Below, piece by piece: positions 13,306 through 30,427 of a DNA stretch of 64,000 nt. The notes below the pieces were generated by a model, which saw only the letters and a program-made list of their open reading frames with translations, was not told the DNA's origin and made no database searches. This DNA comes from Peptostreptococcaceae bacterium (GTDB lineage: Bacteria; Bacillota; Clostridia; Peptostreptococcales; Peptostreptococcaceae): assembly GCA_025210335.1 (NCBI GenBank), contig JAOARY010000005.1:1-64000 (forward strand). Direction: 5' to 3'. Both the position numbers and the translations under genes were made by a program. How positions within the stretch are numbered: the first letter of the stretch is position 1; each line of letters starts with the position of its first letter.

Positions 13306-15012
13306 ATGAATGAAGATAAGAAAAAATTATCAAAAGAGGAAATAGATCAAAAAATTGAAGATTTTGCAACCCCTGCACTAAATTTATTAACTTATGCATC
13401 AAGAGAAGTGGGGCTACAAGAAGGCTTAGAAGAAGGAATTAAAAATTCCAAAGATTTTATAAGGAAAAATACAAAGATAATGTTTAAAGACCTTATGAAA
13501 AAATCAAATAAGAATTTTAATAAAGCAAAGGCGAAGAATATTCTAAGAGGAAAAAGTATAAAAGATATATTAAAAAGTATAAAAGAAAACAAAATCAAAA
13601 TAAGCCCTAAAAATATAAATAAATACTTTATAAAAAAGCCTCAAATTATAAAAAATTATAAAAAGGCTTTAGTTTCTTCTGTTGATGATGTAATAAAAAT
13701 GAAACCAATAAAAGCATTAGTTAAAGAAAATATAGTAACGAGAGCTTTTAAAAGAACTGCTGATATCACAAAGAATATAAGACCTAAGAATTTAAAGAGC
13801 CTAAAATCTTTAAAAAATATGAAAATATCAAAACTGACAAAACCATTAAAAATGTTTAAAAAACTACCAGGGATTGGAACAACACTGGATAGAGCTTATT
13901 CAGTAATTAAGGTTGGTAAGGAAGCTTTAAAAGGAAATACAACAGGAGCATTAAAGGCATCAGTTGGTGTTGCTGGAATGTATGCTGGTGGTGCTATTGG
14001 TGCAACGTTGGGAAGTGCTTTGGGGCCTGTTGGAACAGCTGTTGGTGGTATTGTGGGTTCTTATATAGGTGAGAAGCTAGGAGATAGTGTTGGTGGACTT
14101 ATATTTAACAAAACAACTGAAAAATTGGCAAAGAATACATTTAATTTTGCAAAGAATACTGCTGGTAAAATGTTTAATTTCGCAAAGAAAACAACTGGGA
14201 ATGTATTTAATTATGGAAAGAAAGTTTTGAAGAATCCAAAAAAATTATTAGATGATTACAATAATATTAAGAAAAAAGTTGTGGATAAAGGAATTTCATA
14301 TATTAAAAATCCAAAGAAATTATTAAAAGATGCAAAGGATATAGGTAAAAAATCTATGGAATTTGCTAAATCTGCTTTGAATAAATTTAATATATTTAAA
14401 AAACCAAAAGAGTTAGTATCAAAAAAATTAAAAAGTGCAAAATCTTATTTAATGAAAAATTGGGACTTATCACTTCCTATAGCTGACTTTAAAGATATAT
14501 CTAAACAGATGTTATTGTCTCCTTTTAATTTAGCAGGAGGACTTTTGGGTAAGGCTGGTAAATTTGCAACAAATACATTTAATGTAGGTGTTATGATGGA
14601 ACCTTCAATGAAAAGTAATAACAAAGATAATAATATTTCAAAAAATCCTAAAAAATTAATAAAGGATAAGAAGTCAATAAATGATTTGGGAAGTAAAAAA
14701 ATAAATAAGGTGAATCTAAAAGTTGATAAAGCTTTAGAAACTCAAAAATTAGATAAGAAAAATATATTAAAGACTCAAACGAAGGAAAAGAAAAAAACAG
14801 ATAATAAATATAAGAATTTAGATAAGAAGATTAACTTAACGAAAGAAGAAATCAAAAAAGCTTTAAAAGAAATAGAGAGCTTAAATAAAAAATTAAAAAT
14901 AACTAAAGAAATAGATATTAGTAATTTGAATGCGAATTTATTAAATGATTTAGCACTTAAATTAGCAAATATAATGGCAAAGAATATCAATTATAAATTA
15001 TTAAATATCTAA
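13306..15012 (+). CDS. Tail tape measure protein
   Basis: A 568-aa protein very rich in Lys and Asn, predicted mostly helical. A Gly/Ala-rich hydrophobic segment lies at residues about 215-265 (AGMYAGGAIGATLGSALGPVG), as in tape measures that insert in the target membrane. The C-terminal 130 residues look like a coiled coil. Position after the chaperone gene and before the hub genes supports the call. At about 0.15 nm per residue it predicts a tail of roughly 85 nm. No peptidase domain is visible. The ribosome site AAAGGAGG is strong. Confidence 0.87.
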   Translation: MNEDKKKLSKEEIDQKIEDFATPALNLLTYASREVGLQEGLEEGIKNSKDFIRKNTKIMFKDLMKKSNKNFNKAKAKNILRGKSIKDILKSIKENKIKISPKNINKYFIKKPQIIKNYKKALVSSVDDVIKMKPIKALVKENIVTRAFKRTADITKNIRPKNLKSLKSLKNMKISKLTKPLKMFKKLPGIGTTLDRAYSVIKVGKEALKGNTTGALKASVGVAGMYAGGAIGATLGSALGPVGTAVGGIVGSYIGEKLGDSVGGLIFNKTTEKLAKNTFNFAKNTAGKMFNFAKKTTGNVFNYGKKVLKNPKKLLDDYNNIKKKVVDKGISYIKNPKKLLKDAKDIGKKSMEFAKSALNKFNIFKKPKELVSKKLKSAKSYLMKNWDLSLPIADFKDISKQMLLSPFNLAGGLLGKAGKFATNTFNVGVMMEPSMKSNNKDNNISKNPKKLIKDKKSINDLGSKKINKVNLKVDKALETQKLDKKNILKTQTKEKKKTDNKYKNLDKKINLTKEEIKKALKEIESLNKKLKITKEIDISNLNANLLNDLALKLANIMAKNINYKLLNI

Positions 15013-15026
15013 AAAGAGGTGATAAA

Positions 15027-15458
15027 ATGGATATATTTTTATCTATTAATAATAGAGAAGAAGTTCTTAGATTTCCTATAATTCCACCTAAATTTTGTAT
15101 AATATCATCCTCAAATTTTAATTCTATAAGCAATATAAATAAAGAACAGATGCTTGTACTTGGAGACAAAAAATTAAAGACAATATCTTGGGAAAGTTTT
15201 TTTCCTTTTTTAGACTGTGAAATATCTAAAAATAAAGAATTAAAGGGTTTTGAATTTAGTTTGAAAATCGAAGAATTTATAAAAAGAAAATTACCGATGA
15301 GACTTATAATAACAAGTGAAGAAGCTATGGACGGAATAGTCAATATTCCCGTTTTGATTGAAGAATTTGAATATGGGATGAAAGATGGTAGTAAGGATGT
15401 TTATTACAAAATCAAATTCAAAGAATATAATCTATTAGAGGACAATCAATATGATTAA
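15027..15458 (+). CDS. Tail hub-associated protein (XkdP-like, no LysM)
   Basis: A 143-aa protein beginning MDIFLSINNREEVLRFPIIPP, the pattern of XkdP family N-termini (hub or tail-tip protein next to the tape measure). Canonical XkdP proteins are longer and carry a C-terminal LysM domain; here the protein ends at KIKFKEYNLLE without one. Gene order (tape measure, XkdP, XkdQ) supports the identity. The stop overlaps the next start by 8 bases, so they are coupled. The lack of LysM may mean that wall binding is done elsewhere or not needed. Confidence 0.75.
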   Translation: MDIFLSINNREEVLRFPIIPPKFCIISSSNFNSISNINKEQMLVLGDKKLKTISWESFFPFLDCEISKNKELKGFEFSLKIEEFIKRKLPMRLIITSEEAMDGIVNIPVLIEEFEYGMKDGSKDVYYKIKFKEYNLLEDNQYD

Positions 15459-16416
15459 ATTATATTTGGTAAACAAAAATAAAATAGATATGACTAAATT
15501 TTTATTAAAATTAGAATTTAAATCAAATGAAGAAGAATTATCACAAGAATTAAGTTTTAGAGTTAATAAAAATATTATGAATTTGGATATAGAATTAGGC
15601 TCGATAGTTACTTTGGAAGATAAAGATGAAATCATAAGAGCAATAATAGTCCAAAAATCTATAGAAGATGAAGCTTTTGTAGAATATAAAGCGTTTGATT
15701 TTGGTTTTTATCTAAACAAATCTAAGGAAACATATCAATTCAAAAATGAAAAAATAAGCAATGCAATAGCTCAAATAGTTAAAGATGCAGGCATAAAAAT
15801 AGGAAATATCGCAAATATAAATATTAATGTCAAGAAAATATATAGAAATGAAAGATTAAGCGATATTATAAAAGATCTTATAGATATTGCATTTAAAGAA
15901 AGTAAACAAAAATATTATATGGAAATAAAAAATGGTAAGTTTTATTTATATGAAGAGATGTCAAATGTAATAGAGTCTTCATTTGTGATGAGTTCTAATT
16001 TAAATAAGAAAAATGTGTTTGATTTTATTATCAAAAAAACTCAAAATTTAAGTATTGAAAATATGAAAAATTCTATAAAAGTAATATCAAATGCAAATAA
16101 TTCAAAATTTGAATATGAAGCAAAGGATAATGCTCTTATAGATAAGTATGGTCTATTACAAGATGTAAAGATAATAGAAAATAAAGATATAGCTAAGGCT
16201 AAGAATATTGCAAATAATTTACTAAAAGATAATAAAAAAATAAAAAATGAATATAGCTTAGAGCTTATGGGTAATCCACATTTTAGAGCAAATAGAATTA
16301 TAAAATTAAAAGATAAAGAAATGAATGGGGATTATAAGATAATAAATGCTAATCATATATTAGAAGATGGTATTTATAAAATGAATATAAATATAAGAGA
16401 ATGTATTAAGTTATAG
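15451..16416 (+). CDS. xkdQ: Baseplate hub protein (XkdQ/gp27-like)
   Basis: A 321-aa protein with the XkdQ/late-control-D-like pattern: an N-terminal beta-rich region (ELSFRVNKN, GSIVTLEDKDE), a middle section (YRNERLSDIIKDLIDIAFKE) and a C-terminal return to beta structure with HFRANRIIKLKDKEMNGDYKI, typical of hub proteins with gp27/gpD fold. It should form the trimeric hub under the tube. It overlaps the previous gene by 8 bases and is followed by the DUF2577-like gene after 10 bases. Confidence 0.85.
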   Translation: MIKLYLVNKNKIDMTKFLLKLEFKSNEEELSQELSFRVNKNIMNLDIELGSIVTLEDKDEIIRAIIVQKSIEDEAFVEYKAFDFGFYLNKSKETYQFKNEKISNAIAQIVKDAGIKIGNIANININVKKIYRNERLSDIIKDLIDIAFKESKQKYYMEIKNGKFYLYEEMSNVIESSFVMSSNLNKKNVFDFIIKKTQNLSIENMKNSIKVISNANNSKFEYEAKDNALIDKYGLLQDVKIIENKDIAKAKNIANNLLKDNKKIKNEYSLELMGNPHFRANRIIKLKDKEMNGDYKIINANHILEDGIYKMNINIRECIKL

Positions 16417-16426
16417 GGGGGATTTT

Positions 16427-16762
16427 ATGGATGGGTATAGCAAAATAGCGAAATTATTTAGAGAAAGAGAAAATGTAGTACCTCTTAAGATTGAAGTTGC
16501 AACAGTTATCGCTGATTTTCCTGATATAAAATTAATGCTTGATAACAATAAGATAGTACTTGATAAAGACGAATTATTATTTAGTAGTGCAGTATTAAAA
16601 GATCATCAAAGAGAGTATGTTAGTAAATACGATGGTAGATTAAGTGATCAAAGAACAATTATATTTAAGGATTATAATATTAAACTAAATGATGAAGTTT
16701 TGGTACTACCTTTATATGATAATCAAAAATATTTTGTATTAGATAAGGTTGTGAAATTATGA
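16427..16762 (+). CDS. xkdR: XkdR-like baseplate protein (DUF2577)
   Basis: A 111-aa protein whose C-terminal half (SKYDGRLSDQRTIIFKDYNIKLNDEVLVLPLYDNQKYFVLDKV) matches the DUF2577/XkdR family found between XkdQ and XkdS in PBSX-type clusters. It is likely a small OB-like piece of the hub or spike. GGGGGG before the ATG is the ribosome site. Its stop overlaps the next start in an ATGA arrangement (4 bases), so translation is coupled. Confidence 0.8.
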   Translation: MDGYSKIAKLFRERENVVPLKIEVATVIADFPDIKLMLDNNKIVLDKDELLFSSAVLKDHQREYVSKYDGRLSDQRTIIFKDYNIKLNDEVLVLPLYDNQKYFVLDKVVKL

Positions 16763-17199
16763 TATTTCCAAAGAATTTTAATCTAAATCCTTCTATTTTG
16801 CAAAAAGAATATAAAAAAATCAAAAAAAATCTTCTTTTTGATTTTGATAAGAATGAATTTTGTCTAAAAGATGGAGATATAAAGAAAGTAGAAGGAAAAA
16901 AGAGTATAGAAATATGGATAGAAAAAATCCTAAGAACCAAAAAAGATAGATATAAAATTTATGAAAATAAAGATTATGGAATGAAGATAGAAGACTTACT
17001 TGTGGGACATAATTATACTCAAAGTTTTGTTGAATCTGAAATCAAAAGAGAAATAACAAAGGCATTAAAAAAACATCCTAAAATACAAAGTCTTAGTAAT
17101 TTTAAAATAACAAAGGACAATCCTTATTTGAATATAGATTTTGTAGTTAATTTAAGGGATGAATCTTTTAAAAAGGAGGTACAAATAGTCTATGAATAG
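16759..17199 (+). CDS. xkdS: XkdS-like baseplate wedge protein (gp25/DUF2634)
   Basis: A 146-aa protein. The segment IEIWIEKILRTKKDRYKIYENKDYGMKIEDLLVG is the diagnostic core of DUF2634/XkdS, the PBSX counterpart of the gp25 baseplate wedge protein. The C-terminal part (VESEIKREITKALKKHPKIQSLSNF) also fits. It joins the sheath initiator to the baseplate. It overlaps the genes on both sides (4 and 8 bases). Confidence 0.87.
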   Translation: MIFPKNFNLNPSILQKEYKKIKKNLLFDFDKNEFCLKDGDIKKVEGKKSIEIWIEKILRTKKDRYKIYENKDYGMKIEDLLVGHNYTQSFVESEIKREITKALKKHPKIQSLSNFKITKDNPYLNIDFVVNLRDESFKKEVQIVYE

Positions 17200-18247
17200 A
17201 GATGAATTTCAAAGACGTATGCTTGACCTTATAGATCCAGATTATGATAAATCAGAAGGGTCTTTTTTTTATGATGTATTAAAGCCTGTATCGATTGAAC
17301 TTGAAGAACTTGATAACAAAAGAGAAGAAAATATCAAATCTTTTTTTGTTGGGAATCATAAAAATTCTGCAAGTAATGAAATACTTGATATAAAGGCATT
17401 GGAAATAGGTCTAAAAAGAAAAGAAAGTAAAAAAGCTAGAGGATATATAAATATAAGAGCTAAGGAAGGTACCTTTGTAGAAAGAAATTCAGTAGTTACA
17501 AATGAAGATGGAACTATTGAATTTAAAATTTTACAAAGTATCAAAGTAGATGAAACCAATCAAGCAAAGATTCTTATTGAAGCTATTGAATCTGGTAAAG
17601 AGTCAAATATGCCACCAAATAGTATTAAACATTTTAAGACCTCAATATATGGAGTGTTAAGTCTTACAAATGAAGATTTAATAACGGGTGGAGAAGATAG
17701 AGAAAGTGATATAGAACTAACTAAAAGATATTTAGACCATGTTGGAAATATAGTTGTATATGGTAATGGAAACTATTACAAAAAACTTTCTAAAGATATA
17801 GAGGGAATTAAAGATGCGATAGTATATGAAGTTTTTGATGGTCCAAAAACATTAAAAATAGTTTTAATTGATGAAAATAACAGAACACCATCTAAAGCAA
17901 AAATAGATGAGGTAAAAGAGTATATCGAGCTTTATAGAATGCCTTGTGCAATGGTTAGTATAGAAGGTTGTGAAGAAAAATCTTTAGATATTTCTTTGAC
18001 TTTGGAATTAAAAGATGGGGTAGATAAAGAGATTCTAAAAGAAGAAATAGAATCAAAAATTAGATTCTATTTAAAAAACATGGATTTTAAAAAAGCTCAA
18101 AAAATAAGAAAAAATGAAATAGCTAAAATACTTCTAAATCATGAAGCTATTATTGATTATGTGGAACTTAAAATAAATAATAAGTTTGAAGATATAGATC
18201 TTTTAGAAGGTGAAGTTGGCTATTTAAATAGTTTGGAACTTAATTAA
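17192..18247 (+). CDS. xkdT: Baseplate J-like wedge protein (XkdT)
   Basis: A 351-aa protein of the baseplate J/gp47/XkdT family: N-terminus MNRDEFQRRMLDLIDPDYDKSEGSFFYDV, a middle domain with KARGYINIRAKEGTFVERNSVVTNEDG, the signature GGEDRESDIELTKRYLDHV, and the C-terminal ferredoxin-like part (KIRFYLKNMDFKKAQKIRKNEIAKILLN). With the XkdS and XkdU-like proteins it builds the baseplate wedges that trigger contraction. The length is normal. Strong AAAAGGAGG upstream. Confidence 0.93.
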   Translation: MNRDEFQRRMLDLIDPDYDKSEGSFFYDVLKPVSIELEELDNKREENIKSFFVGNHKNSASNEILDIKALEIGLKRKESKKARGYINIRAKEGTFVERNSVVTNEDGTIEFKILQSIKVDETNQAKILIEAIESGKESNMPPNSIKHFKTSIYGVLSLTNEDLITGGEDRESDIELTKRYLDHVGNIVVYGNGNYYKKLSKDIEGIKDAIVYEVFDGPKTLKIVLIDENNRTPSKAKIDEVKEYIELYRMPCAMVSIEGCEEKSLDISLTLELKDGVDKEILKEEIESKIRFYLKNMDFKKAQKIRKNEIAKILLNHEAIIDYVELKINNKFEDIDLLEGEVGYLNSLELN

Positions 18248-18258: not shown

Positions 18259-18642
18259 ATGAATGGTGGATTAACAGATTATATGAAAAACAAAATTATG
18301 AATTTGATGTTTAGAAATGAACCTTTAGAAAGTTTGGAAAATGTTTATTTGGGACTTTTTAATAAAAATCCATTAGAAAATGGTATAGAAATAGATAAAA
18401 GTGGTTACAAACGAGCATTAGCAAAATTTTGTGAAGCAAGTTCAGGAATTGTATCAAATGAAGAAGATGTATTATTTGAAGTAGCTACACAACCTTGGGG
18501 AGAAATTAGATTTATAGGAGTATTTGATAAAGAACAAGATGGAAATCTAATATGGTATGGAGAGTTTGAATTCCCTAAAAATTATGATGTATCTGATCAA
18601 ATGAAAATACCTAAAGGTGCATTTTCAATGAAAATATCCTAG
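18259..18642 (+). CDS. Phage tail structural protein (gp80/tail fibre Lp-like small protein)
   Basis: A 127-aa protein with the pattern LTDYMKNKIMNLMFRNEP...VYLGLFNKNP..., SGYKRALAKF, TQPWGEIRFIGVFDKEQDGNLIWYGEF and IPKGAFSMKIS. This YxGLF...W(G)xIxxxGxFD...GNLxYYG...IPxGA layout belongs to a widespread small phage structural family often annotated as tail fibre protein or gp80-like. Between XkdT and the XkdU-like gene it probably sits on the baseplate rim. Its precise role is not known to me. Confidence 0.7.
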   Translation: MNGGLTDYMKNKIMNLMFRNEPLESLENVYLGLFNKNPLENGIEIDKSGYKRALAKFCEASSGIVSNEEDVLFEVATQPWGEIRFIGVFDKEQDGNLIWYGEFEFPKNYDVSDQMKIPKGAFSMKIS

Positions 18643-18653: not shown

Positions 18654-19472
18654 ATGATTATAACATTAGGAGCAACTTTTGAGAATTTAAAAAAATATAA
18701 ATATAAAGATTTAAAGCTTCGAACATGGGAAAGTCTTAATGGAAACTTGAATTTTGAAAGTAAGTTTGATTTAAACTTATCAAATGTCAAAATTAATAGT
18801 GAAAGCATAAATTTGAATTCAAAGGCATCTATAAATGCAATTTTAAGCAAGGAAAAAAGAGGTCTTGTAAAAATAGAATCAATATCCAGTGTAGATGTAA
18901 AAGTGGCATCATGGAGAAGAAATATAAGAAAAGATTTAATAAATTATATGCCTATTTATTATAGAAAATCAAAGATAATAGATATGCTTATGGGAATATA
19001 TGCTTCAAAATTAAGAGAACAATATTCTAAAAATGATAATATGAAAAAGCAATTCCTAATAGATGATGTAACATTTATGCTTCAATATTATGAAACAGAA
19101 TATCAAAAAAAATCTTCTTCATCAAAAATTGAAAAAAGACGAAAATTTTTATTAGCTAATAGATATGCTATAGGTAAAGTTATGAATATAACTGAACTTA
19201 AAAAGCTTATAAATATGTTTTATGATTGTGATATAATAGAAGATTTTAAAAATTCGACTGTAAATATAAGAATTAATGATATTTCTGTTGAAGAAAGTAT
19301 ATTATCAGATTTAAAGAAAATAGCAAGAACATTTATACCTGCACATGTGGATATCAAAATAATATATGATTTTTTAAGATGGAGAGAATTAGAAGCTTTA
19401 AATATGAAGTTTGGTCAAATGCAAAACTATACATGGCAAGCTTTAGAAATTTTAAATAAGAAGAAAAATTAA
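18654..19472 (+). CDS. xkdU: Baseplate wedge/tail protein (XkdU-like, DUF2313)
   Basis: A 272-aa protein. Residues about 97-272 fit DUF2313/XkdU (YMPIYYRKSKIIDMLMGIYASKL, ADNRYAIGK-type region, and ...FIPAHVDIKIIYDFLRWRELEAL, MQNYTWQALE). The N-terminal about 95 residues (TFENLKKYKYKDLKLRTWESLNG...) are an extra beta-rich segment not typical of XkdU and may be a fused attachment domain for the tip proteins that follow. It is the last gene of the baseplate block; the first terminator-like hairpin follows. Confidence 0.78.
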   Translation: MIITLGATFENLKKYKYKDLKLRTWESLNGNLNFESKFDLNLSNVKINSESINLNSKASINAILSKEKRGLVKIESISSVDVKVASWRRNIRKDLINYMPIYYRKSKIIDMLMGIYASKLREQYSKNDNMKKQFLIDDVTFMLQYYETEYQKKSSSSKIEKRRKFLLANRYAIGKVMNITELKKLINMFYDCDIIEDFKNSTVNIRINDISVEESILSDLKKIARTFIPAHVDIKIIYDFLRWRELEALNMKFGQMQNYTWQALEILNKKKN

Positions 19473-19493
19473 TAAGATTTTAAAAAGATATTG

Positions 19494-19534
19494 AAAAACT
19501 ATAATTTATGTATTAAATAAATTATAGTTTTTTA
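19494..19534 (+). terminator. Terminator hairpin before tip-protein gene 1
   Basis: A 15-bp stem (19494-19508 with 19518-19532) plus T run. The surrounding intergenic sequence, including the AAAAGGAAAAGGTGATTAG ribosome site region, is repeated almost exactly before gene 2 (20144-20216). Confidence 0.82.
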
Positions 19535-19566
19535 TTATAAAAAAATAAAAGGAAAAGGTGATTAGA

Positions 19567-20109
19567 ATGTCAGAAATAAAATTTAAAAAATATGAGTACC
19601 ATCATGAAGATCAAATGAAAAAGTATGGAAATTATTACGAAATGATGGGTTCGGTTGTAATTGGACCTCATTCAGAACAAATTGTAAAGGTACATCCAAA
19701 GAGAGGTCATAGAAAATTAGATAAAGTTAGAAATTTAGAATTATTCTTAAAAAGTGCTGATGGAGATTATGAAATGTTTATACAAGGATTTTCATATGGA
19801 GATACTATTATAGTAAATGGACCATATAGAACACCAAATGATAATCAAGCACAGGCTTCGTGGATGGTAAATGAACAAACTCCAATAGTTGGAGAAGGAT
19901 TTATACATGGAGAGTCGTATTTAAGAGGAACTATTAGACGTGGAGGTTCTTTATGTAGCACAATATTAGGTGCTGATATTAAAAGTAGAATAAAAGGGGT
20001 TAAATTATTAAGAATAGATATAGATGGAGATGTTCTTAAATTAGTATATAGAAATGAAACTGGAGATAGAGTAAATCCAATGTTTTTACTTAGAGGTTAT
20101 GGATTTTAG
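19567..20109 (+). CDS. Tip/receptor-binding-like protein, stand-alone copy 1
   Basis: A 180-aa protein. Start is the ATG at 19567 with AAGGTG upstream; the GTG at 19558 is part of the ribosome site. No signal peptide. It shares with copies 2 and 3 the N-terminus FKKYEYxxExQMKKYGNYYExMGSVVxGPHSE and the C-terminus RIDIDGDVLKLVYRNETG-RVNPMFLLRGYGF. The core GP...TPIVGEGFIHG...YLRG also occurs in the C-terminal domain of the three coiled-coil proteins at 21405-24190. By place and copy number it is probably a tail tip or receptor-binding protein or an adaptor; the fold is not recognised. Confidence 0.65.
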   Translation: MSEIKFKKYEYHHEDQMKKYGNYYEMMGSVVIGPHSEQIVKVHPKRGHRKLDKVRNLELFLKSADGDYEMFIQGFSYGDTIIVNGPYRTPNDNQAQASWMVNEQTPIVGEGFIHGESYLRGTIRRGGSLCSTILGADIKSRIKGVKLLRIDIDGDVLKLVYRNETGDRVNPMFLLRGYGF

Positions 20110-20143
20110 GATATTAAAAAATTAAAGTTTAAAAAAGGTATTG

Positions 20144-20184
20144 AAAAACTATAATTTATTTATTAAATGAATTATAGTTTTTTA
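20144..20184 (+). terminator. Terminator hairpin before tip-protein gene 2
   Basis: A near copy of the hairpin at 19494-19534: 20144-20158 pairs with 20168-20182, followed by TTTTTTATT. It lies inside a duplicated intergenic region. Confidence 0.82.
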
Positions 20185-20216
20185 TTATAAAAAAATAAAA
20201 GGAAAAGGTGATTAGA

Positions 20217-20750
20217 ATGGCAGAAAGAAAATTTAAAAAATATGAGTATACTTATGAGGAGCAAATGAAGAAATATGGAAATTATTACGAAATAATGGGT
20301 TCAGTTGTATTAGGACCACATTCTGAGGAAATTATAAAGGTATATCCAAAAAGAGGTCGCAAAAAAACTGATGACGTTAGAAATTTTGAATTATTTTTAA
20401 AGAGCAAAGATGGCAAGTATGAGATGTTTTTACAAGGATTTAATTATGGTAAATCTATTTCTGTTTTTGGTCCTTTTGTATATGAGGATGGAAGAGAAAG
20501 CGAAGGTCATTGGTTAGTTAATAAGGAAACTCCAATAGTAGGAGAAGGATTTATAAAAGGAACATCTTATTTAAGAGGTCAACATAGTGTTTTTCGTAGT
20601 GCAATATTAGATGGAAATATTAGAGATGTTATAAAAGGAGTTAAACTAGTAAGAATTGATATAGATGGAGATGTTCTTAAATTGGTGTATAGAAATGAAA
20701 CAGGAGAAAGAGTAAATCCAATGTTCTTGCTTAGAGGTTATGGATTTTAG
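20217..20750 (+). CDS. Tip/receptor-binding-like protein, stand-alone copy 2
   Basis: A 177-aa close paralogue of copy 1. Start ATG at 20217, with the same AAAAGGTGATTAG context. The N-terminal 40 and C-terminal 50 residues are nearly the same as in copy 1. The middle (RGRKKTDD, GKSISVFGPFVYEDGRESEGHW) differs more, which is the pattern expected if the ends are structural and the middle contacts a variable receptor. The region SVFGPFVYE...W...TPIVGEG also lines up with TGPYVY...GSW...PIVGK of the coiled-coil proteins downstream. Role inferred from context. Confidence 0.65.
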   Translation: MAERKFKKYEYTYEEQMKKYGNYYEIMGSVVLGPHSEEIIKVYPKRGRKKTDDVRNFELFLKSKDGKYEMFLQGFNYGKSISVFGPFVYEDGRESEGHWLVNKETPIVGEGFIKGTSYLRGQHSVFRSAILDGNIRDVIKGVKLVRIDIDGDVLKLVYRNETGERVNPMFLLRGYGF

Positions 20751-20768
20751 GATAAGTAAAAATAAACT

Positions 20769-20799
20769 AAAAGCTATATTTATAAATATAGCTTTTTTT
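20769..20799 (+). terminator. Terminator hairpin before tip-protein gene 3
   Basis: A perfect 28-base palindrome (20769-20782 with 20783-20796) followed by a T run. The sequence is unrelated to the two preceding hairpins, although the position is the same. Confidence 0.82.
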
Positions 20800-20831
20800 A
20801 ATACAAATATAAAAAAAGGATGGTAATAAAT

Positions 20832-21380
20832 ATGATTAAGTATGAATTTAAAAAATATGAATTTACAGATGAACAAAATATGAGAAGAACAGGTAATTAC
20901 TATGATGTAGCAGGTTCAGTAGCTTTAGGACCATATTCAGAAGAAGTCGTTGTAATAAGTCCTGAAAGTGGATTTGATAGACTTGATGAATTTAGAAATG
21001 TTGAGATACTAATGAAAAATCCTAGTGAAAAATATGATATTTTTATAAGAATTTTTGATTGGGGAAAAACTACATTGGTAAGTGGACCATCAGTATATGA
21101 AGGGAATAGACAGAATCAATTGTCTTGGTTTGTTAGCGAAAATATGCCTATAGTGGGACAAGGTTTACTACATGGTGAAAAATGTTTAAGAGGTGTATCA
21201 AAAGCAGGGAATGGATATTCTAGATCAAGTACTATATTGGGAGTGGACATACCTAGAAGAATAGAAGGTGTAAAGCTAGTAAGAATAGATAGAAGTGGTT
21301 CAAATTTAAAATTAATATATAGAAATGAAACTGCAGATAGAGTAGATGGAAAATTTATATTAAGAGGATATGCATATTAA
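20832..21380 (+). CDS. Tip/receptor-binding-like protein, stand-alone copy 3
   Basis: A 182-aa, more distant paralogue of copies 1 and 2. The start at ATG 20832 is preferred because AAAAAAGGATGG (20813-20824) is its ribosome site; an ATG at 20820 lies within that site. It keeps YEFKKYEFTDEQNMRRTGNYYD..., VSGPSVYEGN, MPIVGQGLLHGEKCLRG and LKLIYRNETADRVDGKFILRGYAY. It is followed after 24 bases, without a terminator, by the first coiled-coil fibre. Probably a third variant of the same tip component. Confidence 0.65.
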   Translation: MIKYEFKKYEFTDEQNMRRTGNYYDVAGSVALGPYSEEVVVISPESGFDRLDEFRNVEILMKNPSEKYDIFIRIFDWGKTTLVSGPSVYEGNRQNQLSWFVSENMPIVGQGLLHGEKCLRGVSKAGNGYSRSSTILGVDIPRRIEGVKLVRIDRSGSNLKLIYRNETADRVDGKFILRGYAY

Positions 21381-21404
21381 ATATTAAGAGGAGATGATTA
21401 GAAA

Positions 21405-22505
21405 ATGAGTAGTTTAAAAACAAATGAATACAAACTGCATAAATGGGAAGATGACGACAATGTAAGTCGAGTTGAATTTAATGAGAATTTTGATAAATTA
21501 GATAATAAATTAAAAGAAATAGATAGTGTATCGAATAATATTTATGATAAAACAAATAATTTACAAGAACAGATTTCTATACAAAACACAAAATATGAAG
21601 AATTAAACAATAAGATAAAAAATGATGTTGGTGATATAAGTGGTTCTTTGTCATCAAATATAAATACAATTAATAACAAAATTAAAGCAAATACAAATTC
21701 TGTATCTAGTTTAGATAGAAAGATAACAGATAATAAAAATTTTATAGATACTACAAATAAAAAGATAGATTCAAACTCAACATCTTTAACATCAAAAATA
21801 TCATCAAATACTTCAAAAATAACAACGAATAAAAATAATATAACAAAAGCAAATGAAGCAATTACAGGTATAAAAAGTACTACTGCAACATTAATAAATA
21901 ATTATAAAAAAATACAAAGTAGTGTTAACACTCAAAATCAAAAAAATGATATATTAGATTCAGATATAAAAGCAATCAATAAAAGTATACATGATTTGAA
22001 GATAACATCAGATGTACACAGTCAGTACACAGATAGTGGTCTTGCAAGTTACAAAACGGGGAGAGGTAGTATAAGAATTAATGTAGATAGAAATTCTTTA
22101 GGTTCATTTGATGTTAGTCCTAAAATTTGTAGAGGACGCATAATTAAAAAAGCGATATTTACAATTTCAAGCAAGGATGAAATTGTAAGTATAAAAATGG
22201 AAACTATAAAAGAGGGGCAAGGTTGGTTTGTAACAGGGCCATATGTATATAATAGAAAAACTTATTTTGGCTCATGGTACACAGATGGAAAGCCTATAGT
22301 TGGAAAGGATTATAATGGTATATTAAGAGGGGCTATCATGGATGGAAATACTATAAAAACTATATTTGGAACTGGTTCCAATGTTGAAAATTGTAAAATA
22401 AGAGAAGCTTTCATAAATGATAAATCTAATAAAATAACATTTAGATATGAAAATGAGAAAAATTCGTTTTATTCAGATATAAAAATTGATGGAATTGGTA
22501 TTTAG
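21405..22505 (+). CDS. Tail fibre 1: anchor, coiled coil and receptor-binding-like domain
   Basis: A 366-aa protein in three parts. The N-terminus (NEYKLHKWEDDDNVSRVEFNENFDKLD) matches the baseplate-anchor motif of many phage fibres and resembles the short fibres at 25855 and 30157. Residues about 38-205 are Ser/Asn/Lys-rich heptad-like coiled coil. Residues about 215-366 (TGPYVYNRKTYFGSWYTDGKPIVGKDYNGILRGAIMDG..., KITFRYENEKNSF...KIDGIGI) are the same domain as in the next two genes and a relative of the three stand-alone proteins upstream. A trimeric fibre carrying the receptor-binding domain at its tip is the likely structure. Confidence 0.75.
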   Translation: MSSLKTNEYKLHKWEDDDNVSRVEFNENFDKLDNKLKEIDSVSNNIYDKTNNLQEQISIQNTKYEELNNKIKNDVGDISGSLSSNINTINNKIKANTNSVSSLDRKITDNKNFIDTTNKKIDSNSTSLTSKISSNTSKITTNKNNITKANEAITGIKSTTATLINNYKKIQSSVNTQNQKNDILDSDIKAINKSIHDLKITSDVHSQYTDSGLASYKTGRGSIRINVDRNSLGSFDVSPKICRGRIIKKAIFTISSKDEIVSIKMETIKEGQGWFVTGPYVYNRKTYFGSWYTDGKPIVGKDYNGILRGAIMDGNTIKTIFGTGSNVENCKIREAFINDKSNKITFRYENEKNSFYSDIKIDGIGI

Positions 22506-22535
22506 AAAAATAAATTTATGAATGGAGAGCTTAGT

Positions 22536-23336
22536 ATGAGTAGAATAGAAAGTATAGAAAAAAAATTATTAGATGTAAATGTAAAATTAGAATCTAATGG
22601 ATTTGAATTAAGAGATATAGAAGAGGATGTAAAAACAATAAAAAAAATGATTGAGGAGATGAAGGAAATGGAAAATACAAATACACAAAAAGAGTGCATA
22701 TTAAATGATAAGGTAGCTGAAATAGAAGTTAAAATAGGAGAATTAACAAAAGAGCTAAATATAATTGAAGAAAATACTACAAAACTAAATGAAGTTGAAA
22801 AAGATTTAGATAAATTACAAAGAGAAACAAATATTGAATATACAATATTAAAACAATATGCAGATAATGGGCTGGCTATGTATGGAAATAATCATATTAC
22901 AATTAGAGCAAATATAAAACCAGGGTTTGATAAATTTGAAATTGAGCCAAAGGGTTGTAGAGGTATAGAAATAAAAAAAGCAAAAATGGTAATGTCAAGT
23001 AAAGATAGCTTGGTAAATATAAAAATGGAAACATTAAAAGAGGGGCAAGGTTGGTTTGTAACAGGATCATATGTATATGATGGACAAACATATTATGGTT
23101 CATGGTATGCAAATGGGAGTACACCAATAGTAGGGAAAGGTAATGATGGAATTATAAGAGGTGCAATGATGCATGGAAATTCTATAAAGACTATATTGGG
23201 AATGGGTGTTAATGCAGAAAATTGTAAGATAACAGAAGCTCACATAGATCCTAAGACAAATAAAATAACATTTAGATATATGAATGATAGAAATGCTTTT
23301 TATTCAGATATAAAAATTAATGGTATTGGTATATAG
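22536..23336 (+). CDS. Tail fibre 2: short coiled coil plus receptor-binding-like domain
   Basis: A 266-aa protein starting at ATG 22536 (TGGAGAG upstream), which aligns with the start of the next gene; the ATG at 22518 precedes the ribosome site. Residues 1-105 are a charged coiled coil (IESIEKKLLDVNVKLESNGFELRDIEEDV...) without the classic anchor motif. Residues about 113-266 are the shared tip domain (EGQGWFVTGSYVYDGQTYYGSWYANGSTPIVGKG..., IIRGAMMHG). It is a tandem duplicate of the following gene, with the same length and near-identical N-terminal DNA. It may bind through a different baseplate protein than fibre 1. Confidence 0.72.
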   Translation: MSRIESIEKKLLDVNVKLESNGFELRDIEEDVKTIKKMIEEMKEMENTNTQKECILNDKVAEIEVKIGELTKELNIIEENTTKLNEVEKDLDKLQRETNIEYTILKQYADNGLAMYGNNHITIRANIKPGFDKFEIEPKGCRGIEIKKAKMVMSSKDSLVNIKMETLKEGQGWFVTGSYVYDGQTYYGSWYANGSTPIVGKGNDGIIRGAMMHGNSIKTILGMGVNAENCKITEAHIDPKTNKITFRYMNDRNAFYSDIKINGIGI

Positions 23337-23389
23337 CAAAGAAATAAAAATGTATATAAAAAAATGAATTTATAAATGGAGAGATTAAT

Positions 23390-24190
23390 ATGAAGACAAT
23401 AGAGAATATAGAAAAAAAATTACTAGATGTAAATGTAAAATTAGAATCTAATAGATTTGAATTAAGAGATATAGAAGAAGATGTAAAAATAATAAAAAGA
23501 ATGATTGAGAAGATGAAAGAAATGGAAAATACAAACACACAAAAAGAATGCATGTTAAAAAATAAAGTAGCTGAAATAGAAGTTAAAATAGAAAAAATAA
23601 AAACAAAGTTGAATATAGTTGCACAAAATAGCATTAAATTAAATAAAATTGAAAAAGATTTAGATAATTTACAAAGAGAAACAGATATCGAGAATTCAAT
23701 ATTAAAACAATATGTAGATAATGGACTAGCTCTGTATGAAACGGGAAGAGGTCAATTAGAAATAAATATAGAGAAAGGATTTAATGAATTTGAAATTGAG
23801 CCAAGTGGTTGTAGAGGTGTAGTAATTAAAAAAGCTAAAATAATAATGACAAGTGAAGATGGTTTAGTGAGTCTAAAATTAGATACATTAAAGCTAGGTC
23901 AAGGTTTGATTGTAACAGGACCATACGTATATAATGGACAAACATACTTTGGATCATGGGATGCTTGCGCTGGAGATCCTATAATAGGAGAAGATAGAAA
24001 TGGAATTATAAGAGGGGCGATTATGGATAATGGTCAAATTAAAACTGTATTTGGAAAAGAAATAAATGAGGAAGGTTTAAAAGTAACAGAAGCATTTATA
24101 AATCCAAAAACTAATAAATTAATTTTTAGATATATAAATGATGGAAATAAATTCAAAACGAATATAAAAATACAAGGTTTAGGAATATAA
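23390..24190 (+). CDS. Tail fibre 3: short coiled coil plus receptor-binding-like domain
   Basis: A 266-aa tandem paralogue of fibre 2. The first about 75 residues are almost identical in sequence and DNA, and the tip domain (residues about 113-266; VTGPYVYNGQTYFGSWDACAGDPIIGEDRNGIIRGAIMDNG) has diverged more. This gives three different tip domains on fibre-like stalks in one operon. GGAGAG before ATG 23390. The holin gene follows with one base between stop and start, so they are coupled. Confidence 0.72.
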   Translation: MKTIENIEKKLLDVNVKLESNRFELRDIEEDVKIIKRMIEKMKEMENTNTQKECMLKNKVAEIEVKIEKIKTKLNIVAQNSIKLNKIEKDLDNLQRETDIENSILKQYVDNGLALYETGRGQLEINIEKGFNEFEIEPSGCRGVVIKKAKIIMTSEDGLVSLKLDTLKLGQGLIVTGPYVYNGQTYFGSWDACAGDPIIGEDRNGIIRGAIMDNGQIKTVFGKEINEEGLKVTEAFINPKTNKLIFRYINDGNKFKTNIKIQGLGI

Positions 24191-24191: not shown

Positions 24192-24593
24192 TTGGAAGAT
24201 AAAATAATAAATAATTCTTTAATTGCACTTTTTGGAACCATAGGAAGTATACTTGTAGGAAGTTGGGATAGTAATATACAAATACTATTTTTATTTCTGA
24301 TAACAGATTATATAAGTGGTATCATGAAGGGAATAAAAGAAAAGAATATATCAAGTCAGACAGGATTTAAAGGAATATTAAAAAAGATTGCAATATTTAT
24401 GGTGATTATAGTAGCGCATCAATTAGATATTATATCGAACTTAGAAAATCCAATGTTTAAAACTATGACTATATATTTTTATATAGGAAATGAAGGAATA
24501 TCTATAATAGAAAATTTAAGTGTTTTAGGTGTAGCATTTCCTAAATTTATAGAAGAAAGATTAAAGAATATAAAAGAAAATAATACAAAATAA
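24192..24593 (+). CDS. Holin (phage lysis / toxin secretion holin family)
   Basis: A 133-aa membrane protein with TTG start (AGGA seven bases upstream, at the end of the previous gene). It has three or four hydrophobic segments and the motif LITDYISGIMKGIKEKNISSQTGFKGILKK, diagnostic of the TcdE/holin-4 family (D-Y-xx-G...G.kG). Holins let tailocin particles escape by making pores that admit an endolysin. It is the last gene before a strong terminator. No endolysin gene was recognised nearby. Confidence 0.9.
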   Translation: MEDKIINNSLIALFGTIGSILVGSWDSNIQILFLFLITDYISGIMKGIKEKNISSQTGFKGILKKIAIFMVIIVAHQLDIISNLENPMFKTMTIYFYIGNEGISIIENLSVLGVAFPKFIEERLKNIKENNTK

Positions 24594-24636
24594 AAAATAA
24601 TGCTGTCTTAAAATTTAAGACAGCATTATTTTTTTA
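24594..24636 (+). terminator. Strong terminator of the tail operon
   Basis: A 16-bp perfect stem (24595-24610 with 24615-24630), AAAT loop and a T run directly after the holin stop. It ends the main tailocin operon. Confidence 0.93.
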
Positions 24637-24706
24637 CAAAAAAATTTAAAAGATATATTAGAGAAAATATAATATTATTTAAAATTATAAATAAGAGGTG
24701 ATTGAA

Positions 24707-25783
24707 ATGCCAAACCTTAAATTTTTTGATGGCAAAAAATATGTAGAACCTAAGATAAAATTATATGATGATAAAAAGAAAGTATGGTTGGAAATTTGCA
24801 ACAAATATAAGAGAGTTTCAATGATACATAAAGAACTTTTTTTCACAGATAGTGATGAAGTTATAAATTCAGATGAATGTATAGGTAAAATATTTCAAAT
24901 AAATGATGAGTTAATTATTTTAAGAGGTAGCAGTGTTTATAAATATAAGTTAAATTCAAACAATATTTATGAAAGAATTCTAGAAAAAAAGGTATCAGGG
25001 CTACTAAGAAATAGTAATTCGCCAAATAATGTTAAATTATATTTTTTAAAAAATCATTTATATGTAAGTAATGTAGAATCAAATACCATTGGAGAAATAG
25101 ATATAGATACATTAGAAACAAAATTTTCTATATATACTTTTTCTCAGGCGCATATGGAGTGTTATGAAGATTGTTTATATGTTTCAGGACAAAGAAAAGT
25201 GAATATTTATAATTCAAATATGAAATCTATAAATAGTATAAATATATCCCCTAACAAATTTAATTTAAAAGTAGATAAAACAGGAGTTTATTTAGCGACG
25301 AATCATAGAAAATATTCAATTCAAAAATATGATTTTGAAGGAAATAGATTATGGGAAATAGATAAAGAAGAAATTGATTTTAGTTTTTATAATGCATTTT
25401 GTCATTTAGATGAGAAATATTTATATATACAAAGTGGTAAATCTGGAGCTATGAATATTTATAAAATAGATAAAAAGACAGGTAGTGTGATATACAAAAA
25501 GAGATTGGATAAAATAAATGATTATGAAGTCATAGATGGAAATTTATATATCATTGACAATGAATTATTGTATTTTAGACATGTGAATTTAGAAAGCGGA
25601 GAAATAACAGAATATGACTTTGATTATAATAATATAAAAGATCCTTTTTGTGTTTCTAAAGTTTCAATAAATAAGTATGAAGATAAACTTATGCTAGTTG
25701 TATTATTAAAAAACCCAAAAAATTCAAATATTCAAAAGTTATCAATGTTTTATATAAACCCAAATGTATATATAAAAAAATAA
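24707..25783 (+). CDS. Beta-propeller-like tail-associated protein 1
   Basis: A 358-aa protein starting at ATG 24707 (AGAGGTG upstream; GTG at 24698 belongs to the ribosome site). The first 30 residues (LKFFDGKKYVEPKIKLYDDKKKVWLEI) resemble the start of small phage tail-tip proteins. The rest shows about six repeats of four beta-strands with IxxIDxxTxE or IYKIDKKTGSVIYKKRL motifs, a propeller-like pattern. It has no signal peptide. With the short fibre just downstream it forms a unit that recurs, inverted, at 28082-30157. A carbohydrate-binding or tip function is plausible but unproven. Confidence 0.6.
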   Translation: MPNLKFFDGKKYVEPKIKLYDDKKKVWLEICNKYKRVSMIHKELFFTDSDEVINSDECIGKIFQINDELIILRGSSVYKYKLNSNNIYERILEKKVSGLLRNSNSPNNVKLYFLKNHLYVSNVESNTIGEIDIDTLETKFSIYTFSQAHMECYEDCLYVSGQRKVNIYNSNMKSINSINISPNKFNLKVDKTGVYLATNHRKYSIQKYDFEGNRLWEIDKEEIDFSFYNAFCHLDEKYLYIQSGKSGAMNIYKIDKKTGSVIYKKRLDKINDYEVIDGNLYIIDNELLYFRHVNLESGEITEYDFDYNNIKDPFCVSKVSINKYEDKLMLVVLLKNPKNSNIQKLSMFYINPNVYIKK

Positions 25784-25854
25784 AGATTTAAATTTTTTTT
25801 ACAGATAATATGTTAATAAATATTTAGAGTAAAATTTTATTGAGGAGATTAATT

Positions 25855-26109
25855 ATGAATAAAACAAAATATTTAAAACTAAATAAACTTGATTCTAACG
25901 ATTTAATAAATATTGAATCATTTAATATGAATACTAATATTTTAGAACAAAAGATTAAAGATATGAGTATAGCTATAGAGGATAATAAATTGAAAATAGA
26001 ACAAAAAATAAATGAGCAAGATAAAAATAGACCAAATATAATAGTTTCAACAGAGGTTCCAAAATCACCATCACAAAATGATATTTGGATAGATATTAAT
26101 TGTGATTAA
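25855..26109 (+). CDS. Short tail fibre (anchor plus coiled coil only)
   Basis: An 84-aa protein. Start at ATG 25855 after GAGGAG. The N-terminus (KYLKLNKLDSNDLINIESFNMNTNILEQKI) is the fibre-anchor motif seen in the 366-aa fibre and in the protein at 30157. A short coiled coil follows and the protein ends VPKSPSQNDIWIDINCD, a motif that in longer fibres links to a receptor-binding part. It is therefore probably a fibre that has lost its tip, or a bare anchor for the propeller protein encoded just upstream. Confidence 0.6.
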   Translation: MNKTKYLKLNKLDSNDLINIESFNMNTNILEQKIKDMSIAIEDNKLKIEQKINEQDKNRPNIIVSTEVPKSPSQNDIWIDINCD

Positions 26110-26649: not shown

Positions 26650-26700
26650 AAAAAGTTTATAAAATCGAAAAAAGTATTTTTTATAATATAAATTCGATTT
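26650..26700 (-). terminator. Leftward terminator-like hairpin at the end of the TPR gene
   Basis: AAAATCGA (26661-26668) can pair with TCGATTTT (26693-26700), spanning the stop codon. In the leftward direction a T-rich stretch follows. The long loop makes this a weak call. Confidence 0.35.
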
Positions 26701-27986
26701 TATTCAAATTTATTAAATGTATCATTATTTCACTAAATTTTTCTTTTAAAATAGAGCTTAATAATGTATTTTTATTATTTATAAGTATTTTTTTTATTAA
26801 TGAAGATAGTCGAATAAGATTATTCAAATTATTTTTTTTATAATAGGATATAAGAAAATTATAAATTTTATTCAAAGTATTAAGATTATTACTATTAAAA
26901 AATTTCATGTTTAAAATTAATTTGAAAAAATTTATTTTTTCAAATGATTGGGTTATATTTAATTGAATATCTAAATAATATATATTCATATTTGTATATC
27001 TAAAATTACTTTCTATATCTAATTTTATAGCTTTACTGATATTCTCTTGAGCTTTTTTGATATTAAGCAAATCAAAATGAGTTTTTCCTATTAAAAATAA
27101 AAGTTTTAAAGATTTTTTTTTATTTTTATGTTTTAAATATATATCAAGAGCTTTATTTAGATATCTAATATATGATTTTAATTTATTTTCTTTTTGATAA
27201 GTATTAGCAATATAAATGAGAATTTTGGTTTTGTAATTTGTATTTATTTCGCTTTCCAAGATTACTTTATAATATTTTCTGCATTGATAATATTGTTTTT
27301 TTTCAAGATGTATTTGTGCATATTGTAAATTATAAGAATTATATAAAATAGTATTATTTTTAATATATTTTAATATAATTAAATTATTTTTAATAAATTT
27401 TAATATGTTTTTTGTTTTTTTTAATTCACCAGCATTTGTATATACAGATGCCAATAAAATTAGTGATTTTGATTTTATTTTAGTATTAGATGTATTATCT
27501 ATAATTTTATTTAGCATTTCTATTGCCATATTATAATTTTTTTTCTTATTATAAAAATAAGATAAATTAAATAGATTTAAGTATTTGATATTTGGCAAAT
27601 TATATTTATAACAATAGTCTAAAATTATACTGCTATTACTCAGTATATAATTAGATATAATATTATTATTTATATTTTTTGTATTTTTAATTTTGGATAA
27701 TAACAATTGGGTATATTCATTAAGCTGTTTGTCTACTGTTTTTATAATTGTATTTATTTTTTTTTTAATAGAATTTCAATATTAGTTTTAAATTTTGTGG
27801 ATTTCAAAATTTTAGATCTTAGATATTGATTTAAAGTTTGTGGATATATTTCTAATTTTAATGCATAATATTTCAATATAGATTCTATTTTTTTTTATCA
27901 TTGATATTTATAGAATGAAGATTTAATATATATGCTTTTAATTGCTTACCTTCTCCTATAATATTTATTTTATTTTCTAAAGTCAT
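26681..27986 (-). pseudogene. TPR regulator gene interrupted by two frameshifts in A tracts
   Basis: The minus-strand gene starts at ATG 27986 (AGGGAGTG upstream). The first frame stops after 33 codons at AAA AAA AAA TAG (A9 tract, complement of 27888-27896). The frame one base back continues with IESILKYYALKLEIYPQTLNQYLRSK until AAA AAA AAA TAA (A10 tract, complement of 27757-27766). Another -1 shift then leads into the long open frame (27706-26681). Joined, it encodes about 430 aa: an N-terminal part with a possible helix-turn-helix (LEIYPQTLNQYLRSK) and 7-8 TPR-like repeats, the layout of RRNPP-type peptide-sensing regulators. Both shifts go the same way, so sequencing error, phase variation or slippage are alternatives to decay. 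Confidence 0.6.
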
Positions 27987-28081: not shown

Positions 28082-29431
28082 TTATAAAATATCAAATTTG
28101 GTGTAAAATCCCCTAAGAGCGGTACGAGAACCAATACGTCCATTCATTTTAGTAGTTTTAGCATATACATCATAGGAATAAGAAACTATTACAGTATCAC
28201 TAGATGTGATATCAATACTAATAATAAGAGCTGATTCATGAGTTTCATTATAAATATAATTGCTATTTTCTAATTTTGAATTAAAATGTCTTTCGCAGAA
28301 TTTAAAAATATGTTTGTATAGATGTACAGATGTATTATTTAAATCAGAAGGAATTCTAAATTTTTCAAGATAATATCCAGGACCATCTTTTTTTTCACAC
28401 ATAGACATTCTGTATAGATTATACATACCATTATCATTATTTAATGCATGGTGGAATGTTGTTTTTTTATCGATATCATACAAAGTTTTGAATGAAAGAT
28501 TTTCAAAATCGAAAGCGATATGATAATTTAGAAGAATATATCGGTTATTTATATTATAAGCACTATCTAATTTTGTTAGGCGATTATTATCTATAAGGAT
28601 TCTCTGGTTTTGATGATTGTATATGAAAATACCTAAATTATAAATATGAATTATATATTTTGATGTCTTTATAATTTTTGAAAAATTAACAACTGGATAT
28701 TTATCTTTATTTTTTGATATCCCATTTAGTTCTCTTATTTTGACTCCATTTGAATTATAAGTATAAAGAGAAAATTCATGATTACTAAATCTTAATATAT
28801 TTATTTCGTTATCGTACATGGATGAAAATATAAAGTTAGTAGCTGTATTTACATGTGAACTAAAAATTGTAAATTTAGTAATTAAACTCAGAGAGTGTGT
28901 GTAAATGAGTACATTAATATGCGCTGTATTTTTTACTATCATTTTTTGAATTACATAAAGATTATTTTTATATTTTTTAAATGAACAGGTGTTTTGTAAA
29001 TTTAATTTTTTTGTTAAATTAATATTTTTATTATGAATATTATTTAATATAAATATATTCGAATATACAGAATGTTCTTTTTTATAGTTTATAACTAAGA
29101 TATTATCATATAAATTAATACCACAAGCATATTGTAAATCAACTTGTTTGGATAGGAGAACCTCATTTAAATCCAAATCTATGATTTGGATAGTAGAATC
29201 AGAATCCAAATAGTTATTGCCTCGGACATAAGCTTTTGTTTTTTTTAGATAGATAACTTTATTAGTATTTGGTATTAGAACAAATCCTTTCATATATTTA
29301 TTGCCATGTTCTTCTGCTTGAATAGAAATGTCTTGGAATATTTTAGATGTTGGTAAAAATTTTGGTTTTTGTTTTAAATTTTCTAATTTAACTTTATTTA
29401 AATTTTTTATATTTGTACTACCTATAGCCAT
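28082..29431 (-). CDS. Beta-propeller-like tail-associated protein 2
   Basis: A 449-aa minus-strand protein (GGGAGG before the ATG). After a 35-residue leader it has repeated beta-rich units (IQIIDLDLNEVLLSKQVDL, NIFILNNI, LYTYNSNGVKIREL, GIFIYNHQNQRILI) typical of a propeller, and a C-terminal beta-domain (ESALIISIDITSSDTVIVSYSYD). No signal peptide. It lies 12 bases after the fibre gene at 29444-30157, the same association as propeller 1 and its short fibre, but inverted. Likely a second tip or receptor-recognition protein for the tailocin; the exact function is unknown. Confidence 0.6.
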   Translation of the reverse strand: MAIGSTNIKNLNKVKLENLKQKPKFLPTSKIFQDISIQAEEHGNKYMKGFVLIPNTNKVIYLKKTKAYVRGNNYLDSDSTIQIIDLDLNEVLLSKQVDLQYACGINLYDNILVINYKKEHSVYSNIFILNNIHNKNINLTKKLNLQNTCSFKKYKNNLYVIQKMIVKNTAHINVLIYTHSLSLITKFTIFSSHVNTATNFIFSSMYDNEINILRFSNHEFSLYTYNSNGVKIRELNGISKNKDKYPVVNFSKIIKTSKYIIHIYNLGIFIYNHQNQRILIDNNRLTKLDSAYNINNRYILLNYHIAFDFENLSFKTLYDIDKKTTFHHALNNDNGMYNLYRMSMCEKKDGPGYYLEKFRIPSDLNNTSVHLYKHIFKFCERHFNSKLENSNYIYNETHESALIISIDITSSDTVIVSYSYDVYAKTTKMNGRIGSRTALRGFYTKFDIL

Positions 29432-29443: not shown

Positions 29444-30157
29444 CTAAAAATTATTAATTAAAATATCTGCATTCAATGATTGTTGTGGAATGGAATTACT
29501 GTAAATTTCTATATAACCATTAAATGAATTTACATAAGATTTTATTTGAGATTTTTGTGCATGTTTATAGCTTGATTGGTTAAAATTTACATTTACGATA
29601 TCATTAGATGTAAAAATAGAATTATAAATTTTTATTTTATAGCCATTTTCATTTTTTACAAAATTATTTGGATCAAGTTGTACATTAAATAAAGCCTGGG
29701 TCTTATTATTTATTAGGTTTAAAATTTCTGTATTTTTTTGATTGATTAATTTTAAAATATCTGCGTTTTTCTGATTAATTGAAGCTTGAAGTTTTTTATT
29801 TTCATTTTTTAAACTAATTATTTCTGAAGTTAAATTTTTTATATTACTATTTTGTAAATTAGACAAGGCTTTGTTTATATAAGTTATTGTTTTTTTATTT
29901 TCAGTATCAATATTATTTATTTTAAAATCTAAATTATTGATAGAATTTTTGATTTCAGTATTATTTTTAAATAATTTTGAATAATTTTTATTTAATAAAT
30001 TAATATCTATATTAATGGTATTAATAAATTCCTTTACTTGAATAGACACAGTTTCAATTCCTTTATCAATTATATCTGTATTATCATTAAATATTTTCAA
30101 ACTTACAAAATCGTTATGACTTGGTTTTTTTATTTTTAAAAATTTACTTAGTTGCAT
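29444..30157 (-). CDS. Tail fibre with anchor and coiled coil (second cassette)
   Basis: A 237-aa protein. Its N-terminus (KFLKIKKPSHNDFVSLKIFNDNTDIIDKGI) is the phage fibre-anchor motif also seen at 21405 and 25855. Residues about 40-170 form a coiled coil with NQKNADI/NQKNTEI repeats. The C-terminal about 65 residues (TSNDIVNVNFNQSSYKHAQ..., GYIEIYSNSIPQQSLNADILINNF) are a small beta-domain. Strong AAAAGGAGG upstream. It is co-directional with the split-sigma genes before it and the propeller gene after it. Confidence 0.7.
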   Translation of the reverse strand: MQLSKFLKIKKPSHNDFVSLKIFNDNTDIIDKGIETVSIQVKEFINTINIDINLLNKNYSKLFKNNTEIKNSINNLDFKINNIDTENKKTITYINKALSNLQNSNIKNLTSEIISLKNENKKLQASINQKNADILKLINQKNTEILNLINNKTQALFNVQLDPNNFVKNENGYKIKIYNSIFTSNDIVNVNFNQSSYKHAQKSQIKSYVNSFNGYIEIYSNSIPQQSLNADILINNF

Positions 30158-30220: not shown

Positions 30221-30415
30221 TTAAATTTCAAATGAATAAACACATTTTATTAGTTGAAGTATTAAACTTTGATAACAATCATTATTAAAATCCCCATCTA
30301 TAAAAGAGTTTTTAACAAGTAATGGTTCAAAATCGTTAATTATTTTTTCAAGGGCTATTTTATTTTGATTTTTGGCACTAAGAATTAGTTTTTTTATATT
30401 TTTTTCACAAAACAT
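30221..30415 (-). CDS. Sigma region 2-like half of a split sigma factor (RsoA/HTH_16-like)
   Basis: A 64-aa protein (AAGGAGG before the ATG). The sequence (SAKNQNKIALEKIINDFEPLLVKNSFIDGDFNNDCYQSLILQLIKCVYSF) matches the helix-turn-helix 16/UviA-type N-terminal module, which corresponds to sigma region 2.1-2.2 in group V sigma factors such as TcdR/BotR. Here it is a stand-alone gene. B. subtilis RsoA is a comparable small region-2 protein that works with the separate region-4 protein SigO. The gene directly upstream (30428-30838) encodes such a region-4 protein, 12 bases away. Confidence 0.68.
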   Translation of the reverse strand: MFCEKNIKKLILSAKNQNKIALEKIINDFEPLLVKNSFIDGDFNNDCYQSLILQLIKCVYSFEI

Positions 30416-30427
30416 ATAAGAACCTCC

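Follow-up and report, generated by a model that had tools for sequence, protein, structure and literature searches.

Tailocins with several fibres are already known. R-type tailocins of solventogenic clostridia have up to three tail-fibre genes behind the baseplate gene (PMC10538166), and some Gram-negative tailocins have more than one fibre per tailocin and more than one specificity per strain, with an invertible fibre region in Erwinia (PMC12090994). Receptor-binding proteins of diffocin, the tailocin of Clostridioides difficile, require a separate baseplate attachment protein (PMC4453579). Outside tailocins, the branched spike complexes of Ackermannviridae unite several tips, with the virion anchor present on one protein only (PMC11414711).

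Here we analysed a stretch of 64,000 nucleotides (the window) from a Peptostreptococcaceae bacterium, in which positions 19567-24190 hold six complete, co-directional open reading frames. Three encode stand-alone tip-domain proteins (A1-A3) and three encode proteins carrying a related tip on a coiled-coil stalk (B1-B3). The preliminary description assumed that most tailocins possess one or two receptor-binding proteins, which is roughly right, the figure in the clostridial review being up to three (PMC10538166). Given that number, six are unusual, but not unprecedented in kind. Compared with the tailocins of solventogenic clostridia, the present locus has six paralogous tips, half of them stalkless, and two further anchor-bearing fibres are located in the window.

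Resemblance to diffocin (PMC4453579) lies in the XkdK-type contractile tail genes, in the position of the receptor-binding genes after the gp48 gene and in a two-part mounting, which for the present locus is our proposal. A diffocin-like locus that we read (L070), however, has one very large ORF (1725 aa) at the receptor-binding position instead of six small paralogues, and its sequence displays no similarity to the A/B domain. With the Ackermannviridae complexes the locus shares the presence of several tips and an anchor on one of them (B1). Their links, in contrast, are Gp10-like XD/TD domains, for which no Pfam match was found in the sequences of the six A/B proteins, and their tips are tailspikes, unlike A/B. 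Unlike the Erwinia fibre region, the A/B copies are arranged in tandem and in the same direction, and no invertible arrangement was seen around them. What is new here is the occurrence of six paralogous tips in three formats, built on an orphan domain.

Tailocin context of the array

Judged by its gene content, the locus is an R-type (contractile) tailocin of the XkdK/PBSX-like kind. The tailocin context proposed earlier is borne out by Pfam matches to sheath, tube, tail chaperone, baseplate J, sheath initiator, gp48 and holin. The tail module (10957-18247, plus strand, as are all tailocin genes and hairpins described below) comprises the sheath (PF04984/PF17482), the tube (PF09393), an XkdN-type chaperone, a short presumed tape measure (568 aa), XkdP/Q-like (YqbQ-like) genes, DUF2577, the sheath initiator and baseplate J. 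It is followed by a Gp80-like small fibre/adaptor protein (18259-18642; PF23140, E 1.1e-23) and a gp48-like baseplate protein (18654-19472; PF10076 at residues 94-238, E 1.1e-12), both of them candidate docking partners for the tips. At its N-terminus the gp48-like protein is longer by about 90 aa (18654-18932) than its relatives, which measure 180-230 aa and lack this segment. The A/B array then fills the slot between the gp48 gene and the holin gene (Phage_holin_4_1, 24192-24593; Pfam E 3.4e-36), where related tailocins have their fibres. Neither capsid nor portal or terminase genes were seen next to the tail module in the ORF content of both sides and in selected Pfam scans; surface-protein-like genes flank it upstream and polysaccharide genes downstream.

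Within the array, the stand-alone proteins are A1 (19567-20109, 180 aa), A2 (20217-20750, 177 aa) and A3 (20832-21380, 182 aa), starting with ATG at 19567, 20217 and 20832, respectively. Upstream GTG codons of A1 (at 19558) and A2 fall within the Shine-Dalgarno sequence, and the ATG codons were therefore taken as starts of these two genes. B1 (21405-22505, 366 aa) consists of an N-terminal anchor (approximately residues 1-40), a coiled coil of about 180 residues and the tip domain (22026-22502). B2 (22518-23336, 272 aa; an alternative ATG is at 22536) has no anchor, a coiled coil of about 105 residues and the tip domain at 22857-23333, and B3 (23390-24190, 266 aa) is likewise stalked and anchorless, with its tip domain at 23711-24187. 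The tip domain of each B protein measures about 159 aa.

Relationship and identity of the tip domains

That the six are paralogues, three stand-alone and three stalked, was confirmed by sequence identities, shuffling, profile-profile comparison and whole-genome searches. Identity among A proteins ranges over 45-68% (A1/A2 68%, A1/A3 49%, A2/A3 45%) and among B tip domains over 54-61%, as against 24-28% between A and B. For the nine A-B pairs, Smith-Waterman scores lay between 58 and 107, whereas shuffles averaged about 31 (z 5.3-15.1). The lowest score, 58 for A3-B1, is below the top shuffle of that pair (60). Profile-profile alignment of A with B by hhalign gave a probability of 95.6 (E 1.1e-8). 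When the whole genome (3.28 Mb) was searched, the B-tip profile matched A1 at 4.6e-7 and A2 at 2e-5, A2 matched B2 at 2e-5 and B3 at 7e-4, and no match beyond A/B appeared at E <= 0.001. Columns invariant in all six proteins (P, G, V, G, W, P, I, G, R, G, K, K, R, G) contain the G of the proposed GP(x)VY motif, the W, PI.G and RG, so the shared core holds. The FRYxN / YRNET end is conserved inside each group.

Relationships within the B group are less clear, B1 and B2 being grouped in 88% of distance-bootstrap replicates and the corresponding FastTree branch being unsupported (0.44). The A/B proteins show no similarity to the gp48 extension, the Gp80-like protein, the two propeller-like proteins or the minus-strand fibre described below. 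Likeness of B2 to the surface protein at 7098 was dismissed, a single borderline score being expected by chance among 36 tests.

It had also been supposed that the ends of the proteins are conserved and the middles vary. This is true of A1/A2 (p = 5.5e-5), where identical and different positions number 48 and 42 in the middle and 74 and 16 at the ends, but not of A1/A3, A2/A3 or any B pair. A variable middle between conserved ends could recall a system that generates diversity in one tip, either by retroelement mutagenesis or by invertible cassettes. Diversity-generating retroelements (DGRs) often target phage receptor-binding proteins. Here, however, the differences include codon indels, synonymous divergence is high as well, no large inverted repeats flank the genes, and matches to RVT_1 are confined to contigs C31, C26 and C74, the window being on C72. 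A DGR origin of A/B was rejected, since there is no reverse-transcriptase match on the contig of the tailocin, and the wider idea of a diversity-generating system is largely refuted and retains hardly any probability. For every pair among the paralogues dN/dS is about 0.3-0.46, which argues for purifying selection and for every copy being in use.

No known receptor-binding or lectin sequence family is matched by the tip domain in Pfam, PHROG, NCBIfam or PDB sequences, nor did these collections yield any other significant match. Viral contigs, genome contigs, phages and plasmids (by tblastn) and taxon samples (394 genomes for the order, 391 for the class and 398 for the phylum, overlapping) returned no credible relative outside this genome; this absence applies to the samples and to pattern-based scans and is no proof of absence in general. 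Two matches from the phylum sample (E 0.03-0.04) are at chance level for 398 genomes. The 285-306-aa protein encoded directly before the holin in related tailocins (L065-L067) weakly shares a 'KFxYxY...YGN' start with A/B, and its kinship was rejected (hhalign probability <= 1%, inconsistent scores). With no relative detectable in the collections searched, a structure of the tip domain would probably define a new family.

AF2 was run on the six-row alignment. The A2 model, of moderate quality (pLDDT 56.5, pTM 0.58), has 11 strands and one short helix and is fairly summarized as a predicted all-beta sandwich knob, its fold not nameable more specifically. The B2 tip model (pLDDT 40) was unusable for superposition of A and B. 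Searches with the A2 model gave weak matches: the best Foldseek match in PDB had E 5e-3 (for a model of pLDDT 56), and in BFVD tail-fibre and collagen-repeat proteins were frequent, with E from 4.5e-4 and TM about 0.34. With VIA, the model aligned weakly to the Kp9 tail fibre (Z 4.7) and, in PDB, to the C-terminal region of the phage Fri1 tailspike gp49 (Z 5.5, 99 aa, 3.5 A), immunoglobulin domains following closely at Z about 5. As immunoglobulin-like beta sandwiches score about equally, the resemblance of the model to fibre tips is not specific. The Foldseek and VIA lists gave no confident fold, and our statements are confined to the folds they contain. Position in the locus, the stalk-tip layout of the B proteins and the weak, fibre-tip-like all-beta model make a receptor-binding role of the tips plausible.

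Anchor, stalks and proposed mounting of the tips

An anchor profile was built from fibre N-termini of seven other tail loci, with 200 shuffles as control. Among the six proteins, only B1 has the conserved N-terminal tail-fibre anchor: it scored 26.8 bits against 9.3 for the best shuffle, and none of the 200 shuffles reached its score. B2 (-0.8 bits), B3, A1 and A2 do not score with this profile. A3 is borderline at 1.1 bits, a value reached by 11 of the 200 shuffles, and the notion that the N-terminus of the A proteins is a degenerate fibre anchor was rejected on the ground of this non-significant score. The same profile also scores ORFs 25840-26109 (19.3 bits) and 29444-30157 (25.6 bits). None of A1-A3, B2 and B3 revealed a docking motif.

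Coiled-coil shafts occur in B proteins only, A proteins being too short for any shaft. The 3.5-residue periodicity of the stalks was reached by 0 of 2000 shuffles for B2, 2 of 2000 for B3 and 24 of 2000 for B1, whose weaker periodicity is accompanied by core positions rich in Ile and Asn. The B3 stalk is 75% identical to that of B2; the B1 stalk has another length and composition. Homologous tips thus sit on unlike stalks, which indicates that the two parts were joined independently of each other.

The restriction of the anchor to B1 admits a reading in which B1 is the sole working fibre and the other genes are redundant or decaying tandem duplicates. Tandem spacing of the repeats (about 650 bp for the A1/A2 unit, and 854 bp) agrees with it. 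On the other hand, all six frames are intact, Shine-Dalgarno sequences are present where read, and dN/dS is well under 1 in each pair, anchorless proteins included, so that we regard non-functional leftovers as quite improbable.

The explanation we favour, giving it a little better than an even chance, is that the six proteins form one lineage-restricted family of all-beta tips, most likely receptor-binding heads, B1 being a classical fibre and the others being docked through a partner. B1 would be complete and self-sufficient: its N-terminal anchor would plug into the baseplate, its coiled coil, probably trimeric, would reach outward, and its tip would touch the target surface. B2 and B3 would present the same tip on a different and shorter stalk lacking the anchor, and A1-A3 would be tips without a stalk. 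Since the anchor is missing in A1-A3, B2 and B3, these five would have to be mounted through a partner, much as in systems that combine an attachment protein with a receptor-binding protein; candidates are the Gp80-like protein, gp48 with its extension, and B1. Several specificities may then be displayed, either by single particles or by a population of differing particles; trimer state, docking, receptor binding and a broadened range are what we infer from this arrangement. Should the domain be a receptor-binding head, nature would here supply six variants of one head, compactly encoded and mounted in three ways, on which one could test how tailocins gain or mix specificities and how stalkless tips attach.

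Hairpins and neighbouring genes

A near-perfect, terminator-like hairpin of 50 nt with A and U tracts lies between the gp48 gene and A1 (19488-19538; MFE -17.4 kcal/mol, z -6.7), and its second copy lies between A1 and A2 (20138-20188; MFE -18.2, z -7.9). A third terminator-like hairpin with a T tail, unrelated to the other two, is located between A2 and A3 (20769-20796; MFE -10.6, z -3.7). In the gaps from A3 through B1, B2 and B3 to the holin gene, the hairpin scan lists weak AT stems only. The segments of hairpin plus Shine-Dalgarno sequence preceding A1 and A2 are 96% identical over 80 bp as compared with 68% for the proteins; the duplicated unit was thus probably hairpin plus gene. The gap between hairpin and gene, only about 28 nt, cannot accommodate a promoter; expression of the genes must therefore depend on read-through of the hairpins. 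They may be leaky attenuators or RNA-processing/stability elements upstream of A1-A3, and, necessarily leaky, would set the dose of the tip genes.

Dose control is relevant to a different reading, in which the A proteins descend from the tip domain but serve in assembly or as caps: they would bind B trimers transiently, or template them, without being displayed for receptor binding. Short genes next to receptor-binding protein genes are often chaperones, as in diffocin (PMC4453579), stalk and anchor are both missing from the A proteins, and the hairpins could hold their dose sub-stoichiometric. Chaperoning, however, needs no three diverged copies, and the divergence of A1 and A2, concentrated in the centre, is unlike that of a housekeeping factor. 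Moreover, fibre chaperones are normally encoded downstream of the fibre, and we know of none homologous to the tip. We grant this reading a minor, though appreciable, probability. We consider it improbable that the stand-alone proteins are absent from the particle and released on lysis as soluble tip copies, which occupy receptors and shield kin, or that they exchange with B tips into mixed heads. If true, the tailocin would itself provide receptor blockers, or heterotrimeric tips in a range of combinations. Display of partner-docked A tips remains the reading we prefer.

The operon is closed by a strong terminator with a 20-bp stem (24592-24634; MFE -22.5, z -9.4). It contains the holin without an endolysin; the related loci L065-L067 have an amidase-like gene (function read from sequence and position) directly after the holin. 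Past the terminator, 24698-26109 encodes a possible beta-propeller protein of 361 aa together with an anchor-bearing protein of 89 aa that has an 'SPSQNDIWID' end; the two may be another receptor-binding pair with expression of its own. A minus-strand cassette encodes a fibre with the anchor (29444-30157), a propeller-like protein at 28082-29431 and, at 26681-27706, a TPR protein. It is headed by two adjacent small genes (30221-30838, minus strand), encoding an HTH_16 protein and a Sigma70 region-4 protein, and this pair looks as if a TcdR/UviA-type sigma factor had been divided between two genes. Genes for NeuB, a NeuC-type epimerase and a CMP-sugar synthetase (50436-55714) suggest that the surface polysaccharide produced by the neighbouring cluster contains a nonulosonic (sialic-acid-like) sugar.
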